Positions 2,743 to 14,489 of a stretch of DNA of 15,015 nucleotides are shown piece after piece (the stretch's first letter is position 1; every line of letters begins with the position of its first letter). The notes beneath the pieces were generated by a model. It worked only from the letters and a program-made list of their open reading frames with translations, was not told the DNA's origin and did no database searches. The translations under genes and the position numbers were made by a program. The stretch comes from Acanthamoeba lenticulata (Eukaryota > Discosea > Longamoebia > Acanthamoebidae), in contig NAVB01001773.1 of the NCBI GenBank assembly GCA_002179805.1, positions 1-15,015 of the forward strand, written 5' to 3'.

Positions 2743-3802
2743 TTAAGCCCTGACCTCGAAGTGAACGCCGAACTTGGGGGTAGAGCCAGCAAGGTCGAAG
2801 GTGTTGAGCTCAGTGCCGAGGGTGGCCTTCACCACGGGGGTGAGCTGCTGAGCGACGCTGACGCTGAGGAGACCGTCCGAGCCGATCTTGGCCTTAGCCT
2901 CAGTGCGGGCGTCAAGCTTGACGGAGTCACCGATGGTCACCTTGATGGTGTTCTTCTGGAGGTCGTAGTCGAGCGAGGAGGCGAAGCTGGTCTCCTTCGA
3001 GGGAGTGTAGTGCAGGTGAGCACCAACGGAGTAGAGCCTGGGAGCATCACCACCATCGGTCACGCTGCCGGCGTCGCTCTTACTGCACGCACAGGGCAAA
3101 TTAGTGTCCGCTCGACAAAATCTGCTACAATTTTGAATGGCAAAATTCGCCGCAAGGGGGCAAAAGAGAAAATGTTCCCGGTACGTACACGAAGGCGGTA
3201 AGATCGTGGGTAGTGGCCTTGTAGTTGAGGACACCAGTGACGTTGTTGAGCACGCCAGCCTGACCGGCAAGAATGCTGTACTTGGTCTCAACACCAGCGG
3301 TGACGGCCTGGCGCGAGACGGTGGCGTTGGCCGAGAAGACGCTCTTGGCCGAGACGGGGTTGTAGACGAGGGTCGAGGCAAAAGTGCCGACCTCGTGCTT
3401 GTACTCGAGAACGGCCTCCAGATCGTGGGCAGCGCCAGTCTGGGCCTTGAGGGTAGCCTTGAGGCCGGGGAAGGCGTTCTCGAGGGCGAGCTCAGCCTTG
3501 ATCTGGTTGTTGGTGTCGACGGTGCCGATAACCTCCAGGCCGCGCGAGGCAAGCTTGAACTTGGGCTGGAAGGTGCCGACGACGACGTCAGCCTTGTTGG
3601 CCTGCTTCTTCTCGGCCGAGGTCACGAATTGGACGCCATTCTCAGCGGTAGTGGTCACCTCGACCTTGTAGGTGGAGGGGAAACCCTTGCTGAGCAGGTC
3701 CTTGGCGCCCTTGCCGAGGTTGGAGTAGAGCGGGGCAGCGGGCCTCACGACGACGGGGACGGCGGTGGGCTTGATAGCGGGGGCGGGGGCAGCGAACGAC
3801 AT
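2743..3802 (-). CDS. VDAC: Mitochondrial outer-membrane porin (voltage-dependent anion channel)
   Basis: There are two exons, 3802-3189 and 3082-2743, split by a 106-nt GT-AG intron (phase 2), giving 317 aa and ending ...HFEVRA. VDAC forms a 19-strand beta-barrel in the mitochondrial outer membrane that passes ATP, ADP and other metabolites. The sequence shows the eukaryotic porin pattern: a short N-terminal helix region with LYSNLGKGAKDLLSKGF, then alternating amphipathic strands such as YKVEVTTTAENGVQF, and a C-terminal half with LSVSVAQQLTPVVKATLGTEL and GSTPKFGVHFEVRA. The usual VDAC is about 280 residues; the excess is largely an Ala/Pro/Val-rich extension of roughly 24 residues before the conserved LGK. 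The ATG at 3802 is the only upstream in-frame start that fits. The gene diverges from the ARID gene over 271 bp. The family call is secure; the role of the extension is unknown. Confidence 0.93.
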
Positions 3803-4073
3803 CGTTAATTAAGCGGATGAGGGGGTTTGATTGCTCTCTTTTCTCACGACAGCAGAACAAAGCGGCGCTCGCTCCGGGGCATAACCTCCCGCCCCCTCCC
3901 CCCCTTTACCGGCATTTCCAGGCAGGATAAATCCTTGTTCGGGCAGTCCTGATTTATCGTTCGCGTTTCTTGTCGACACATGGGCTTTCATGACCGTTGG
4001 CAACTGAAACCAACAAAGAAATTCAAAAATATATGAAAAAGAAATAGTTAAATTGATCAAAAAATCGGCAAAG
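3803..4073. promoter_or_regulatory. Shared divergent upstream region, VDAC / ARID gene
   Basis: This is 271 bp between the VDAC ATG (minus strand) and the ARID ATG (plus strand). A C-rich block lies at about 3887-3906. The ARID-proximal 60 bp is AT-rich (AAAATATATGAAAAAG around 4026-4041). No firm TATA box or named operator could be assigned; a two-way promoter is inferred from the layout only. Confidence 0.5.
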
Positions 4074-7000
4074 ATGGAGGATGAAAGCTCGGAGAAGAAG
4101 GCCTTCATGGCCAGCTTAACCGAGTACATGGCTAAGCGGGGGTGCGTCTATCACTCGATTTTTTACAATTTTTGTGGCAATAATTTTGAGTTGGTTCTTG
4201 CTCTTGCAGCACGCCCATCGAGCGCATCCCGCACCTGGGCCAGAAAGAAATCGATCTGCACAAGCTCTACGTGGAAGTGACCAAGCGGGGCGGTCTCAAC
4301 GAGGTCATCTCCAACAAGGGCATGAAGGATGTGGCCACTGCCTTTAACTTGCCGCCCACCTGCACCAACGCCGGCTTCACTCTTCGTGTTCACTACCTCG
4401 TACTCATCTCTTCCTCTCTCTTCTCTTCATCTTCTTCCTCTTCTCTCCTCCTCACCACAACCCACAACACGCACCAGAAATACTTGTTTCCCTACGAGCG
4501 GCGGTTCTTCCACAACCTCGACGACGACGCCATGGTGCCCAAGCGGCCCGTCGGTCCGACCCACCTCCCCTTTGCACTACTGCTATCCTCCTCTTCTCTG
4601 CCGCAGCTCTTCTCACACGCGCTTGGCGGCGCTCTTTTGACCAAAGGTCGGCCCCGCAAGGAGGAGCGCCTGCTGTTCTCGTACGCGCCCATCACCTCGT
4701 TGTCATCATGTTCACGATCTTCTTCTTCTTCTTCTTCTTCTCACGTGCATGTCGTCATGCGCAAGCAGGAAGGACGACGGGAGCGCCAAGCCCGCGCGTG
4801 AGCCGCCACCGCCGGCCTACGGGCCCGGCACGCGGCGCTCCACCCGCCGCGCGGCCAGCGAGGCCGCCATGCGCACAGCGGCCGCCATCGCCGGCGAGCG
4901 CGGCATCACCTCGGCGGCCGCGATGGGCATCGGCTCCGGCGTCGGAGGCGCCTCGGCCATCGGCGGCGGGCCATCGGCGGGCGCCGGGCTGGGCTCGGCC
5001 GGCCTCGGCGGCGACGCCGCGGGCGGCATCACCACGCGCTCGGCCCTGATCCTGCGCTCGGCGCAGGACATCATGCCGCAGGACTATGTGCGGACGGCCG
5101 TCCCCAAGGCCAGCGCGCGGCTCAAGGGCGCATGGGCGTCGTACCACCCGGCCCTCCGCCTGATCGCGCTCGCTCTCGACTCGCCCTTGTCGCCCGACGT
5201 ACGTCGCTCAGCCCAATTGCTGACGTGGCCTTGGCGCGTGCTGACGTGGCGCATGGGGGGGGGGATGCTGACGTCGATAGGCGCAGATCGATTGGGCGCT
5301 GAACACGCTGGCGGTCCTGTCCTACGAGGAGCCGCTGCACGTGGGGGCCATCCCGCTGACGGGCATCATCGACGCGCTCCTCCGCCACGCGCGCCCGCTC
5401 GCCGCCTTTGTGCTTCACGCCTTTGCGCCGCCCGCCGTCCGGCGCCATCACCGTCGGCTCCGCCGCTTCATCGACACCGTCGACGAGGAGGAAGACGAGG
5501 ATGACGATGAAGAGGATGATGATGACGAAGATGATGACGACGATGATGGCGAAGAGGACCTCGTGCCACCGGCCGAGCCCACCAAAGTGCAGATCAAGCG
5601 CGGGATGCAGGTGTGGGAGATTCTGCGCAATCTGGCGTTCGTCCCAGAGAACGAGGCCAGCCTCGCCGAGCACCGCCGCCTCGTCCGCGTGGCCGTCGGG
5701 CTCATGAACCTCAGCCGCCTTCGTGCCGCAGCCGCCGCCCCAACAATGCAAAGAATGCCAAGAATGCCGAGCGCCGCGGCGCTCAAGCGCGAGCGGGTGG
5801 AGAGGCTGAGCGCCAACGCGCTCGACGTCTTTGCCAGCGTGTGCCACTGTCCGTCGCTGGCCGGCGCCCCGGCGGTCGCCCGCGCCGCGCCGGCGCTGCT
5901 CCACGCCCTCGAGCGGGCCGACCTGCGCGGGCCCGGCGCCACCAGACCTCACGCGTGGACCGCCGACGAGGGCGGCGTGGACGAGCTCGTGTGGACTGCC
6001 GTCGACTGCCTGAAGAAGCTCACGCGCGAGACCGACAACGAGGCGCGCCTCTTGCCCTTCGTCGACCGCCTCCTGGACGCGCTCGCCGGCCTCCTCTGCA
6101 TGCGCGACCGCGACGACGACTTTGTCGACGACGAAGACGTTGAAGACGACGACGACGAAGAGAACGAAGACGGCGACGAAATGGAAAACGACGAAGAGAA
6201 TGAAAACGGCGGAGAGGGCGCCGGCCGGCGACGTCGAGCCGCCGCCACCGTGGCGAGGCGTGCCCGCGAGCGCGAGAGCGACGAAGTGGCCGAGCTGAAG
6301 GCCGCCGTGCTGGCGGTGCTGCTCAACCTGGCCAAGCACTCGACCCGCACGGCCTGTCGCCTGCCGGCCCACCCGGCCCTCGTCCGCCGCCTGCTGGGCC
6401 TCGTCGTCGCCGCCGGCGCCGCGGCGCCTGACGTCATGACTCCGGCGCCCGCCGCTGCCGCCGTCACTGCCGCCGCCGCCGGCATTGACGCCGGCTTGTC
6501 GGCAGTCGTCGGCGCGAGTGTGCCGATGGACGTCGTCGTCGATGACGATGATGAGAATGGCGACAACAACATCAACAGCAGCGACAAGCCCGAGGCGCGA
6601 GGCGTGGAAGAAGACGAGGAGGACGACGAGGAGGAAGAGGATGACGAGGACAGGCTGGAGGACTTGCGGGCGGCCAAGCGACGAAAGGTGGATGACGGCG
6701 GGGAGAAGAACGCAGACGAGGAAAACAACGGGGACGGCGAGGCCGCTGGTGGCGAAGTGGCACAAGAACGAAAGACGACGACGCAAAACGAAAACGAAAA
6801 CGAAAGCGAAGCCGACAATGCCGCGGCCACTTCCACGGAGCCGGCCAGCACTGCCGCTGCCGCGGCGACAGACGCGCCCACAGCAGTCGCCGCGGAAGGC
6901 ACCGGCGGCGCCGGCGTTGACGGAGCGGCCCGCAAGAACGGGGAGAGCGGCACCAACATCATCAACGTCATCATCAACAACAACAGCGACGGCCCTGCTG

Positions 7001-7221
7001 GGGTCGAGCGGGCGCGGGAGAGGCTGCGGAAGCAGGCCGGCCTGGTGCTGAGCAAGCTGGCCGACGACGTCGCCTGTTGTGACGCGCTCCGGCCCTACGA
7101 CGACCTCATCGTGCAGGCCACGCTTCTGGTGCCTTCACAGGGACCGCTGGCCTCGCTGCTCCACAAGCTGCTCCTCAACATCGGCCTCGCCGCTTCTTCT
7201 TCCTCTTCAGCTTCACCTTGA
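4074..7221 (+). CDS. ARID1/Swi1-like SWI/SNF subunit with AT-hook
   Basis: The six exons are 4074-4141, 4210-4399, 4478-4553, 4647-4680, 4769-5198 and 5281-7221 (about 912 aa; an alternative in-frame acceptor gives exon 6 from 5287). Residues about 6-99 form an ARID DNA-binding domain (LTEYMAKRGTPIERIPHLGQ, VTKRGGLNEVISNKGMKDVA, FTLRVHYLKYLFPYE). An AT-hook-like KRPVGRPRKEE is assembled from exons 3 and 4. An Ala/Gly-rich linker leads to IDWALNTLAVLSYEEPLHV (about 269-287), then an acidic tract (334-361), MQVWEILRNLAFVPENEASL (a hallmark of the ARID1/BAF250 C-terminal region), two more acidic tracts, an NLS-like AAKRRKVDD (about 731) and a helical C-terminus VLSKLADDVACCD...YDDLIVQATLLV...LLHKLLLNIGL. 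ARID1/Swi1 proteins target SWI/SNF remodellers to DNA. Here ARID is at the extreme N-terminus, and the long disordered N-terminal arm of animal ARID1 is absent. ARID and C-terminal assignments are firm; complex membership is inferred. Confidence 0.9.
5219..5275 (+). repeat. Triple GCTGACGT(GGC) motif in ARID intron 5
   Basis: Within the 82-nt intron, GCTGACGTGGC occurs at 5219-5229 and 5240-5250, and a shortened GCTGACGTC at 5267-5275. The core TGACGT resembles CRE/bZIP sites. Function is unknown. Confidence 0.7.
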
Positions 7222-7344: not shown

Positions 7345-10300
7345 TCACAGGCCATCCGCTTGGTCACCATCGCCGAAGTTGACGGCGTCGAACTGCTGCT
7401 GCCTCCGTCGACGCACGATGAAGGCCGCCACCAGCGCCGCGCAGATGACCACCACGACAAGGCCCGCGGCCACTGGAATGGCCACCGCCACGGCGATAAC
7501 CCACTCCGTCCCGCCGCTGCTGCTCCCGTCTCCGTCGCCGTCTCTCGACGAACGGCCGAGGAGAAGCGAGAGGTCGGGATCAAAGTCGAGGTCGTGGTCA
7601 AAGTGGTCGAACGTGATGCGCACCGACGACGTGGCCACGTGGGCCTGGCTCGAGCAGTTGACGCGCGTCGTGCTGTTGTCGGTGAGGGCAAAATTGAGCA
7701 GGCGCACGAGTGTGCTGGCTTTGGAGGGGTCGGCGCTGGCGAGGAGGAGGGTGGTCATGTCGGTCTGGGGCGTGTTGTCACGCACGGTGGCGTTGGCAAA
7801 GGCCGGCCTGATGACCATCTCGAACTGCAGCTTGTTGGCAGGGGAGGACCAGTTCCAGGAGTCGAGGAGGAGCGAGAACTTGAGGAAGGCCGGCGTGATG
7901 CTGAACGTGTAGTTGTTGCCTGTCATTGTTGGCCAAAAGAAGAAGAAGAAGAAGAAGAACACAAACACACGCACATGGACAGCATCAGGTCAACGGAGCA
8001 ACTACCGAACAACATAAAATGGTTCGAGCGCACCGAGGGTGAGGGCGGTTGAGGCGTTGAAGGTGGAGAACTTGTAGATGAGCGTGGCGTTGTTGGCCAG
8101 CTTGCTCGTGAAGATGCTCGTCGTCACGTTCTCACTGCCCGTCGACGACCCGCTGCTCAGCCACCCTGCAGGAACAGGTATGAGAAAGCAGACCGTCAAT
8201 CCAAACGCCAAGCCTGGCCCAGCGCATGGCGCGCACCGTCCTGGAGGCGGGCCTGCCAGACGAGGTCGCCCGCGGCGGTGAGCTCGCGAAGGCTCATGAA
8301 GTCCACCTGCGCCCTCTGTCCTCCATCGTCGTCTGTGCCGCCGTTGGCCGAAGAGGCGTTGCGGGGCTGGAGGACGAGGCTCGGCGTGGTGCTGTCGATC
8401 GTCACGCCGATGGCCTCCACCGTCGGGCTGGGCAGCGGCACCGGACAGATGGCTTCCGACCCGGCGCCGCTGGCGGACAGGCTCGGGGAAGGGCCCAGCT
8501 GCTGCCAGCCGATGCTGCCCACCGTGCCAAAGTCGATCCCTGCATGCCATTCGTGTTGTCACCCTTCCTCCTTCTCCTTCTTCTGCTCTTTTTCGTACCG
8601 CAGTTGCTGTCGCCGGTGACGTTTACTTGCACGTTGCCCGTTTGCGTCCACGTCTTGCCCGCGGTCTCGAACTGCACTCCTGCTCGCGCGTGTTAGCCGC
8701 CCAGCAAACAAACAAAGGGAAATGATGACGATGATGACGATGAAGGCGTGCGAACCCTTGGACTTGCTTCCGGGGCCCACAGTCAGCACGAGGTCTTTGT
8801 CCTGGCGCCATGTTCCCGCCCCGGCTGCCTGAAATTGCAGACCTGTTGCGCCCACAGTCACGCGCGGAGGCGGTCAGCAGCGTCACCCGGACTTGGGGAA
8901 GGGGGAGGAGCGGTTGGTACCAACAGAGCTACTGCCTACCACATGCAGGCCGACCATGCCCTTCTGCGTCCAGTTGGCTTGGCTGCCTGCGTTGAACACG
9001 ACACCTGGTTGTGCGACACGCATGTGGACAATGATCAGAAATGAGAACAACCAGTAGTAGCTTGCTTGTGCGCATACCCGAACTGTCGTCGTAGACCGTG
9101 ATGTTGAGGCGGCCTTGTGCCGTGGTTGTCCAATCGCCAACAGCGACCACACCTGCACCATGCAGGATGAGCAAAAGACGAGCAAAAGCAATGCTTTGTT
9201 ATGGTTTACCAGTGGAGCCCGAGTACGCGGAGATGGTGGTGTCGCTCGTATGGTTCCACGTGTACACTTGCACTCCTGGGAAGCAGCCACATCATGTGGA
9301 GGTTGTTGGTTTTTTTACAGTTTTAAATGGAGTTTAGGTGCTTTTTGGGTGGTCGTACCGATAGACGCGTTGGTGAGGTTCATGTGCACACGACCATATT
9401 GAGCCCACGTGATCGTTTCACCGCTCGAGCCTCTTGTCCCAAACACGCCTTTTTGCCCCCACGCCATTTTTGCCCATCAACAACAACAGCACGACTTGAG
9501 GGGAAGCTGTACACGCCGCACCGCCTGAATTGTTGAGCACCATGGTCAGGTCCCCGTACTGCCGCCAGGAGGTGGCCTGCGATGTCGCCACCAGCTGAAC
9601 GCCTGCGAGGTCGACAGAAATGAGCCTCAAGGTCTGAGTGCGGAAGGCGAATGAGGGCGACGTCCAGACCATTGGCTGAGACGGCCTCCAGCCACACGTG
9701 GCCATGTTGATGCCACGCGCCCCCAAGGCGGACGCCAAAGACGCTTGAGGTGATCACCGTGAACAGCGAGTTGCCGAACTGCTGCCAGGTTCCCTCGACA
9801 TTCACGCCTGCCCACCACGCGCATCAGTCGGTTCACCACGTCTACATCATCATCTTCAACACTTCAGGTGATTTCAGAAAAAGAAGAGGATAATGAGGGT
9901 ACAGGGGACGTAGGAGAAGCTGTTGGACGTAAAAGAAAGGTCGCCGTGCTGAACCAGAGTTCCTTGGACAACCAGCGCAGGTCCGTTGATCGAGAACGAG
10001 CCGTTGAGGCTGAGAGTCTGGCCGGTCTGGATCTCCCACAAGCTACTCGAGGTGTACGAAGTGTCGAGTTGGATGTGGACTCCCGCCACTCCCGCTCTCC
10101 ACAAGAAGGTTAATGAATGTCGAGGGGCGTGAGGATTTCATAGGAGGGTTGAAGGAGGTGGCCCTACATGAGGGTGAGGTTCTTGGCGATGGTCGTGGGC
10201 GGTTCGCCGTAAATGCCACCGGCTACAAGAACGCTGTCAGTGTCATTCGCCGATGCAATGGCGTCGTGGATGGTAGTGTACTGGCAGCCAGTCTTGCACA

Positions 10301-10467
10301 CAGACCACTGGGCTGTGCCCCCCAAAGAATCAGTTCGGGCAAGAAGATACATGGCAGCAGATTTAAACAGGTTTGGTACTTGCTGCGGCTGCGGCAAGGA
10401 GGAAGAAGAAGAAGAGCAGACTCCATTGACAAGAGGGAAGTGACGATGTCCTCATTCCGCAAGACAT
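7345..10467 (-). CDS. Type I membrane protein with beta-helix-like repeats, one repeat per exon
   Basis: The 14 exons are 10467-10380, 10312-10168, 10096-9903, 9807-9670, 9602-9522, 9448-9359, 9275-9210, 9152-9078, 9004-8921, 8842-8756, 8679-8599, 8539-8237, 8165-8034 and 7919-7345; the sum is 2139 nt (712 aa). Residues 1-29 hold a signal peptide (hydrophobic core WSLLFFFFLLAAAA; a second in-frame ATG lies at 10455). Next comes a segment WSVCKTGCQYTTIHDAIASA...VLVAGGIYGEPPTTIAKNLTL, the usual entry of pectin-lyase-fold parallel beta-helix proteins (DUF1565-like). From residue about 143 there are short repeats, each starting G-V/L and holding W-x-Q-x-G or a variant, with many N-glycosylation sequons. 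Exons 12-14 encode a longer ectodomain, one TM helix (about 661-690) and a basic-then-acidic cytosolic tail RRRRQQQFDAVNFGDGDQ. All introns between exons 3 and 14 are phase 1. It is likely a cell-surface protein; ligand and function are unknown. The fold is inferred from pattern only. Confidence 0.85.
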
Positions 10468-13150: not shown

Positions 13151-14489
13151 TCAGAAGCCTCTTGGTGGGTTGGTGGGTCGCTGCAGCCTATGGCAGAGAG
13201 GAAGGATGTGAGAAACATCATGATCAGGACCATACAAGAAGTGAATGGGCACCAGTTGTCGGCGGGATAGGTGGCATGGGGCGGGCCCTCGACGATGTGG
13301 AGGGTGTAGGCTTGGCGCGACTGATCAGACTTGTTCTCGTACGACATGTGCACCAGGCTGCCATGCATCAACACCAACGTTCCTGTGTGGTGTTCAAACA
13401 AACACAACCAACTTGAGTGTAAACCTTGTTGGGAACAAAATAGACGATGACATGGCAGCACGAGACGAACCTGCAGGGACCTCGACGGGGCTGAACTGAG
13501 ATGCGTCGGCCCACTCGGGGTCGTTGCCCTTGGGCGGCTTGAAGGTCACGCCCTCGCCCTCCCGCACGAACCTGCGCTTGATGCCGTGCTTGTGGGAGCC
13601 CGGGATGACCCACAGGCAGCCGTTGTCGCGGGTGGCCTCTTCAAAGGCGAACCAGAACGCGACGCACGAGAGCGGCTCCGTGTAGAGGAAGGTGCTGTCC
13701 TGGTGCGGCGACACTACACAAAGACCATTACCAGCGAGTACACAGGTCAGAGAGGTGAGGGTCTTTGTTGCGACTGCTGGTGGCACAAGTAGAAGTAGGA
13801 CGAACCTTCACCGCCAATTCGAGGCTGCTTGAAGATGTACATGGACTGGATGAGGAGCGGGTTCTTGAAGCCGACCAGCTCCTTGGCCACCCGTTCCATC
13901 TCGGGCTTGCGCGAGAACTTGCTGAACTCGGGATCCTCGTCGTGTAGCGCTACAACCGCACGTCAGCGGATACGTCCATGTAGCGACGGTCCTCCAACAT
14001 GCAAAGGTGTTGGGGAAGGGCATGGTACCGTGGGCGATCTTGTTGATGGAGAGCTTCTTCTCCTGCTTGAGCTCACCTTGCTCCGTGAAGGCGTTCTCCT
14101 CAAAGAAGAAGCGAATCTTGTCGCCACTGTCGAGGAAGTACTTGTTGGTCTTCGTCTGCGCACACGATCAGTGCGAAGATGAGAGTGAGTAAGAGCTGAG
14201 GGGAGGAAAGAAAAGTAGATGGGAGCGTGTACGGGCTGCTCCTTCGTCGAGAAAATGGTGAACTCCTCAGATGATTCGAACTCTTTGATGAGTTCCTGAA
14301 TACGCTGCTTGAGGGACGCCACCTCTTGAGGCGTCACAAAGCCGGGCAGCACGGCATAGCCGTCCTCCAAGAACTTCTTCTTGAGCTCCTCAAACTAAGG
14401 AAGGTTGAAGATTGACGTCAGCGCACAACCGTAAGCCAAGGCAGCTAGAGCACGTTAGCAAGGGACAAACGTACATCGTAAGATGCCAT
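13151..14489 (-). CDS. PHYHD1: Phytanoyl-CoA dioxygenase domain-containing protein 1 (PHYHD1-type)
   Basis: The seven exons are 14489-14475, 14394-14233, 14155-14029, 13949-13806, 13713-13471, 13382-13253 and 13187-13151; they sum to 858 nt (285 aa, close to the roughly 290 aa of animal PHYHD1). This is an Fe(II)/2-oxoglutarate-dependent oxygenase with a double-stranded beta-helix core. The N-terminus FLEDGYAVLPGFVTPQEVASL is the usual PhyH opening. The metal site is His153 and Asp155 (SPHQDSTFLYTEP) with the distal His242 in HGSLVHMSYENKSD, and Arg253 (SRQAYTLH) is placed to bind 2-oxoglutarate. WVIPGSHKHGIKRRF and the ending DNWLQRPTNPPRGF are also PHYHD1-like. The last exon is only 37 nt; reading through its intron gives a wrong tail, whereas splicing TG|G restores NWLQRP. 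The first exon is 15 nt. All active-site residues are present, so the protein should be active. The physiological substrate of this subfamily is not established. Confidence 0.92.

Follow-up and report, generated by a model that had tools for sequence, protein, structure and literature searches.

The minus strand of the window analysed here, a 15,015-nt stretch of contig NAVB01001773.1, carries a predicted gene of 14 exons (10467–7345) that encodes 712 residues. We consider it probable, if well short of certain, that the product is a type I receptor or adhesin with a β-helix ectodomain on a supersandwich-like stalk, and that its rung-encoding exons evolve by germ-line duplication of exon units. 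This reading is carried by a run of small phase-1 exons that mostly encode one repeat unit each, by intron positions that follow the repeat in eight loci, and by a paralog, C77, in which exons and introns were copied together.

Gene anatomy

Every intron of the predicted model is GT-AG and 57–114 nt long, and the spliced exons form an open frame of 713 codons, stop included. Introns 1 and 3–13 are in phase 1 and intron 2 is in phase 2; exons 4–13 constitute ten phase-1 symmetric exons in a row. From the N to the C terminus, the protein comprises a signal peptide (assigned by eye), an N-cap, approximately 12 W-x-Q-x-G-like units, a stalk, a transmembrane (TM) helix and a basic tail. The exons, with the evidence for each in parentheses, are as follows.

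10380..10467, minus strand: exon 1, start ATG with a signal-peptide-like sequence, 88 nt; a phase-1 intron follows (signal peptide judged by eye)
10168..10312, minus strand: exon 2, β-helix N-cap (QWSVCKTGCQYTTIHDAIASANDTDSVLVAGGIYGE), then phase-2 intron (N-cap profile; gene finder at one setting)
9903..10096, minus strand: exon 3, first rungs; borders picked by frame, the least certain exon (missed by the gene finder)
9670..9807, minus strand: exon 4, two units (WQQFGN, WHQHGH), phase-1 symmetric (model and gene finder)
9522..9602, minus strand: exon 5, single unit, 81 nt, phase 1-1 (model and gene finder)
9359..9448, minus strand: exon 6, single unit, 90 nt, phase 1-1 (model and gene finder)
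9210..9275, minus strand: exon 7, single degenerate unit, 66 nt, phase 1-1 (model and gene finder)
9078..9152, minus strand: exon 8, single degenerate unit, 75 nt, phase 1-1 (model and gene finder)
8921..9004, minus strand: exon 9, single unit, 84 nt, phase 1-1 (model and gene finder)
8756..8842, minus strand: exon 10, single unit, 87 nt, phase 1-1 (model and gene finder)
8599..8679, minus strand: exon 11, single unit, 81 nt, phase 1-1 (model and gene finder)
8237..8539, minus strand: exon 12, last unit (WQQLGP), linker and start of stalk, 303 nt, phase 1-1 (gene finder, paralog matches)
8034..8165, minus strand: exon 13, stalk, 132 nt, phase 1-1 (gene finder, paralog matches)
7345..7919, minus strand: exon 14, stalk, modelled in a paralog as supersandwich-like, with the TM helix, the RRRRQQQ tail and the stop (paralog matches, models)

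An initial annotation of this DNA had proposed seven consecutive phase-1 exons joined through split Gly codons. Exons 5–11 agree with this in position and length, all seven being multiples of three preceded by AG and followed by GT, and a check of the spliced frame confirmed that their junctions are in phase 1, each with a Gly codon divided by the intron; the symmetric series is longer than first noted. Across the whole gene, a Gly codon is split at 10 of the 12 phase-1 introns. A simple gene finder recovered 11 of the 14 exons at the best of 48 settings, with all seven single-unit exons exact and exons 1–3 missed, although its splice matrix had been trained on the window gene itself, which makes the recovery only partly independent. 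Many other settings lost some of the seven exons. An artefact of picking exons by frame could be ruled out, as splice borders, phases and the 713-codon open frame agree and paralogs show the same pattern. There was no Rfam match at the gathering score that would indicate an RNA gene. Among approximately 8000 candidates scored, no relative of the window protein or of the spliced helix set was found, and no metagenome or other protein bearing witness to the window-gene borders.

Exon borders follow the repeat

The window gene as a rule devotes one exon to each unit, though not strictly so: seven exons encode a single unit (22–30 residues apiece in exons 5–11), one encodes two units (exon 4) and one a unit plus linker (exon 12). 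The further proposal that each exon holds one W-x-Q-x-G-like core is correct for five of the seven single-unit exons, but exons 7 and 8 have no clean core as judged by eye. The seven units are alike beyond shuffles at the level of both protein (z 16, residue shuffles) and DNA (z 7.5, mononucleotide shuffles).

Eight helix loci were modelled at one fixed gene-finder setting, tuned on the window; L060, which has no gene model, and L050, an allele of L049, were left out of the count. The baseline for phase counts consisted of predicted genes outside the family, minus two stretches possibly holding family ectodomains. Phase 1 was found in 41 of 43 helix-region introns, versus 46 of 145 introns in the baseline genes. 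Moreover, 31 of the 43 helix introns sit 5–14 residues before a Trp; random placement gave 13.7 ± 3.0, with no more than 26 in any of 2000 trials. With the window left out, the corresponding figures are 32 of 34 introns in phase 1 and 22 of 34 ahead of a Trp (10.9 ± 2.7 random). Intron position is thus non-random with respect to Trp in the eight loci, which ties the intron site to the rung border. Paralog exons contain 1–4 units each and start mostly near a unit start, and some rung borders in paralogs have no intron.

Metagenome proteins bear on one of these predictions. P0003 (52% identical) lacks exactly the predicted in-frame intron between helix and stalk of the paralogs C384/C1637, and P0006 has an insertion where P0003 is without that intron. 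Together these sequences give outside support for one predicted border, in C384/C1637.

Fold of the ectodomain

A profile of six N-caps, two of them partial, matches Pectinesterase A over its residues 12–58 (E 0.0016). Searched singly against Pfam, one of the six N-cap members matched DUF1565 (E 0.011), and there was one unrelated match; the window protein itself scored above the cut-off of no Pfam family, a result that does not exclude the fold. A low-confidence model of a paralog has three strands in each of two central units and places the unit-start Gly, the site of the intron, directly ahead of strand 1. The N-cap profile and this strand pattern, the latter from a model of low mean confidence, support the β-helix first suggested for the repeat, and the modelled strands, with the intron/Trp statistics, indicate that exon borders fall at rung borders. 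Type I topology, also part of the initial annotation, is supported by the signal peptide and by a TM helix in the paralog stalk model, and the window protein has by eye a C-terminal TM segment followed by the RRRRQQQ tail. An N-cap-like match at E 0.1 or better occurs at 21 places, and there are probably more β-helix genes than the nine looked at.

A stalk shared by other ectodomains

The stalk is also found at 57 places outside the window contig, alleles counted in, in a genome of 48.5 Mb. The ectodomains above the shared stalk–TM module are RCC1, kelch, β-helix or unassigned; this is a large unnamed receptor-like family on one module. Match scores are equal for C384/C1637, C1141/C1191 and C1678/C65, which suggests that these pairs are uncollapsed allelic copies in the assembly; because such copies are likely, the places outnumber the genes. 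The stalk profile, and only this profile, found relatives (18 proteins).

In the paralog model the stalk looks supersandwich-like. We take 8r8q_B to be GLMP, and the enzymes listed with GLMP presumably have the supersandwich fold. ComC_SSD matched the stalk in one of 14 members with an E of 0.084, below significance, and a profile search of the PDB with the stalk gave a best E of 0.34, to TM segments and an unrelated transporter.

Exon duplication and the origin of the exon pattern

The proposal that symmetric exons can be multiplied is borne out by paralog C77 (locus L060), which was read by motif and alignment as it has no gene-finder model. C77 contains a tandem unit of approximately 183 bp, made up of exon plus intron, at C77:10.3–12.3 kb, for which Tandem Repeats Finder (TRF) reported 3.8 copies at 77%. 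Within the stretch analysed, seven unit cores are spaced 157–188 bp apart, and self-matches span C77:10328–12229. Compared between units, exon cores of a fixed 81 nt share 73% identity (z 39.6) and the trimmed introns share 61.5% (z 24.6), thus indicating that exons and introns were copied together. By splice-site pattern, four of the seven units have both sites (exons of 84–87 nt), one is without a donor and two are without an acceptor; parts of the array may be decaying. On these alignments, exon duplication is real in the family. The opposite strand has a further match to the N-cap and array-like sequence at C77:13.4–14.1 kb. Elsewhere, L048 has one 86-bp self-match (76%) inside a Ser/Pro-rich linker, and L038:6179–7035 holds a long tandem repeat of period 81 (10.6 copies).

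Several results weigh against the reading that we favour. Foldseek with the helix model returned no significant structural match, so that the case for the fold is made by the N-cap profile together with the strand pattern. The repeat and self-match search found no DNA-level tandem duplication among the exons of the window gene, and its introns resemble each other no better than shuffles (z 1.1); the initial suggestion that this locus itself varies in repeat number was therefore not borne out. An exon–intron array was found in one of nine other helix loci tested (C77 only; some loci are partial, and L049 and L050 are alleles). Split Gly codons also count for less than they seem to, because the G|GT..AG|G splice consensus by itself produces some of them: among phase-1 introns of predicted genes that do not belong to the family, 16 of 46 likewise interrupt a Gly codon.

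One rival reading is that an old, intron-poor β-helix repeatedly gained introns in parallel at the turn Gly, a G|G proto-splice site, with no exon duplication in the window gene. The unalignable window introns, the frequency of split Gly elsewhere and the intron-free rung borders of paralogs all fit such a history, as does the average of 6.2 introns per gene in A. castellanii given in the available excerpt of PMC4053784. However, introns 3–13 of the window gene share a single phase, and the C77 introns are homologous from unit to unit. The same excerpt describes intron gain in A. castellanii as very rare recently, which applies here if this genome is that of a close relative. We therefore regard parallel intron gain as unlikely, though it deserves serious consideration.

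Regulated diversity, in which symmetric exons would be skipped or combined by alternative splicing to give many repeat numbers per locus, as reported for leucine-rich repeat (LRR) exons of brown-algal ROCO genes, seems very improbable. Ten symmetric exons in a row would lend themselves to it, but the introns of the window gene are short. In a short-intron setting, intron definition makes exon skipping uncommon. A precedent with splice variants does exist (PMC11378527, as excerpted, here and below). That exons and units coincide by chance in a compact genome rich in introns, the product being a conserved surface protein of the ordinary kind and its exon borders having no functional or evolutionary meaning, would suit a window gene without sign of recent duplication but is very improbable given the array growth in C77 and the non-random phase and position of introns relative to repeat borders in eight loci, whether or not the window is left out.

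Proposed mechanism

For the favoured reading, a germ-line exon-duplication model is proposed that starts from the established parts, namely the predicted gene anatomy, the common stalk, the phase and position of the introns and the C77 array. The ectodomain would be a right-handed parallel β-helix with a pectin-lyase-like N-cap and approximately 12 rungs. Next to the membrane it would be carried by a supersandwich-like stalk, which leads into a TM helix with a short basic tail. Phase-1 introns would lie in the turn between rungs, with most rungs encoded by one exon, and units could thus be gained or lost with frame and fold intact. Tandem copying in the germ line would act on entire units of exon plus intron, as exemplified by C77, and occasional intron loss would merge rungs into longer exons; the window gene itself would have been born of old exon duplications. 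Whole ectodomains (β-helix, RCC1 propeller, kelch or unassigned) would be swapped on one stalk, mostly at a phase-1 junction, to which exceptions exist. The window protein would be displayed at the cell surface as a spiral scaffold on the common stalk, offering its variable turns for binding, most likely to glycans or to prey and substrate surfaces.

Neighbouring genes

A long acidic frame at 5281–7221 (plus strand), with a BAF250_C match barely above cut-off (21.4 versus 21.1 bits), is convergent with the β-helix gene and ends approximately 120 bp from its stop. On the minus strand, a eukaryotic porin lies at 3125–3808 (Porin_3, E 1.5e-21) and pieces of a PhyH-type dioxygenase gene at 13394–14394 (E 1.6e-20 and 1.9e-5).

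Relation to known systems

Literature searches of open-licence papers found no description of an exon-per-rung β-helix or of the stalk family. The initial claim of novelty accordingly stands for this repeat, but not for the architecture itself, which is known from LRR and tetratricopeptide repeat (TPR) exons of brown algae (PMC11378527). There, ROCO (LRR-ROC-COR) candidate receptors have one LRR per 72-bp phase-2 exon, with exon duplication or shuffling and splice variants, and exon-per-repeat is reported likewise for the TPR exons of NB-TPR genes; the source seems to indicate that somatic recombination has yet to be shown. The brown-algal LRR exons are the nearest precedent for an exon-per-rung gene. 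Both systems share a candidate receptor role, one repeat per exon (not strictly so here), a uniform phase (phase 1 in introns 3–13 here) and exon duplication within the family (C77). Unlike the brown-algal receptors, with their LRR or TPR solenoid, 72-bp phase-2 LRR exons and GTPase proteins, the present gene has β-helix-like rungs in phase-1 exons of 66–90 nt and encodes a type I TM protein with a stalk common to other ectodomains, known from genomic DNA alone. Luteinizing hormone receptor genes, in the same source, have LRR exons of about one repeat each in a surface receptor, similar in exon size to the window gene but with an LRR rather than a β-helix fold.

Parallel β-helix proteins such as pectinesterase, AlyGC and phage tail spikes are comparable in the N-cap profile and perhaps, by the low-confidence paralog model, in three strands per central unit of approximately 25 residues; the window protein differs from them in its W-x-Q-x-G-like repeat, the lack of a Pfam match and its membrane anchor. 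Unlike GLMP of the lysosomal peptide transporter and Dictyostelium ComC, type I membrane proteins whose supersandwich domain is membrane-proximal and to which there is no significant sequence match, the stalk family has interchangeable ectodomains.

Exon-per-repeat organization is a hallmark of LRR/TPR candidate diversifying receptors, and the β-helix-like rungs described here would add a second type of fold whose structural units are followed by exon cassettes. More tentatively, and with somewhat less than even confidence, we envisage a unicellular, amoeba-like organism with a large, remodelled set of surface receptors: different ectodomains would be swapped onto one supersandwich–TM stalk and, in the β-helix class, single rungs gained or lost as phase-1 exon cassettes, the diversification taking place in the germ line. 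The finding points to a large receptor-like family in an amoeba-like genome and suggests how such cells could remodel what they bind.
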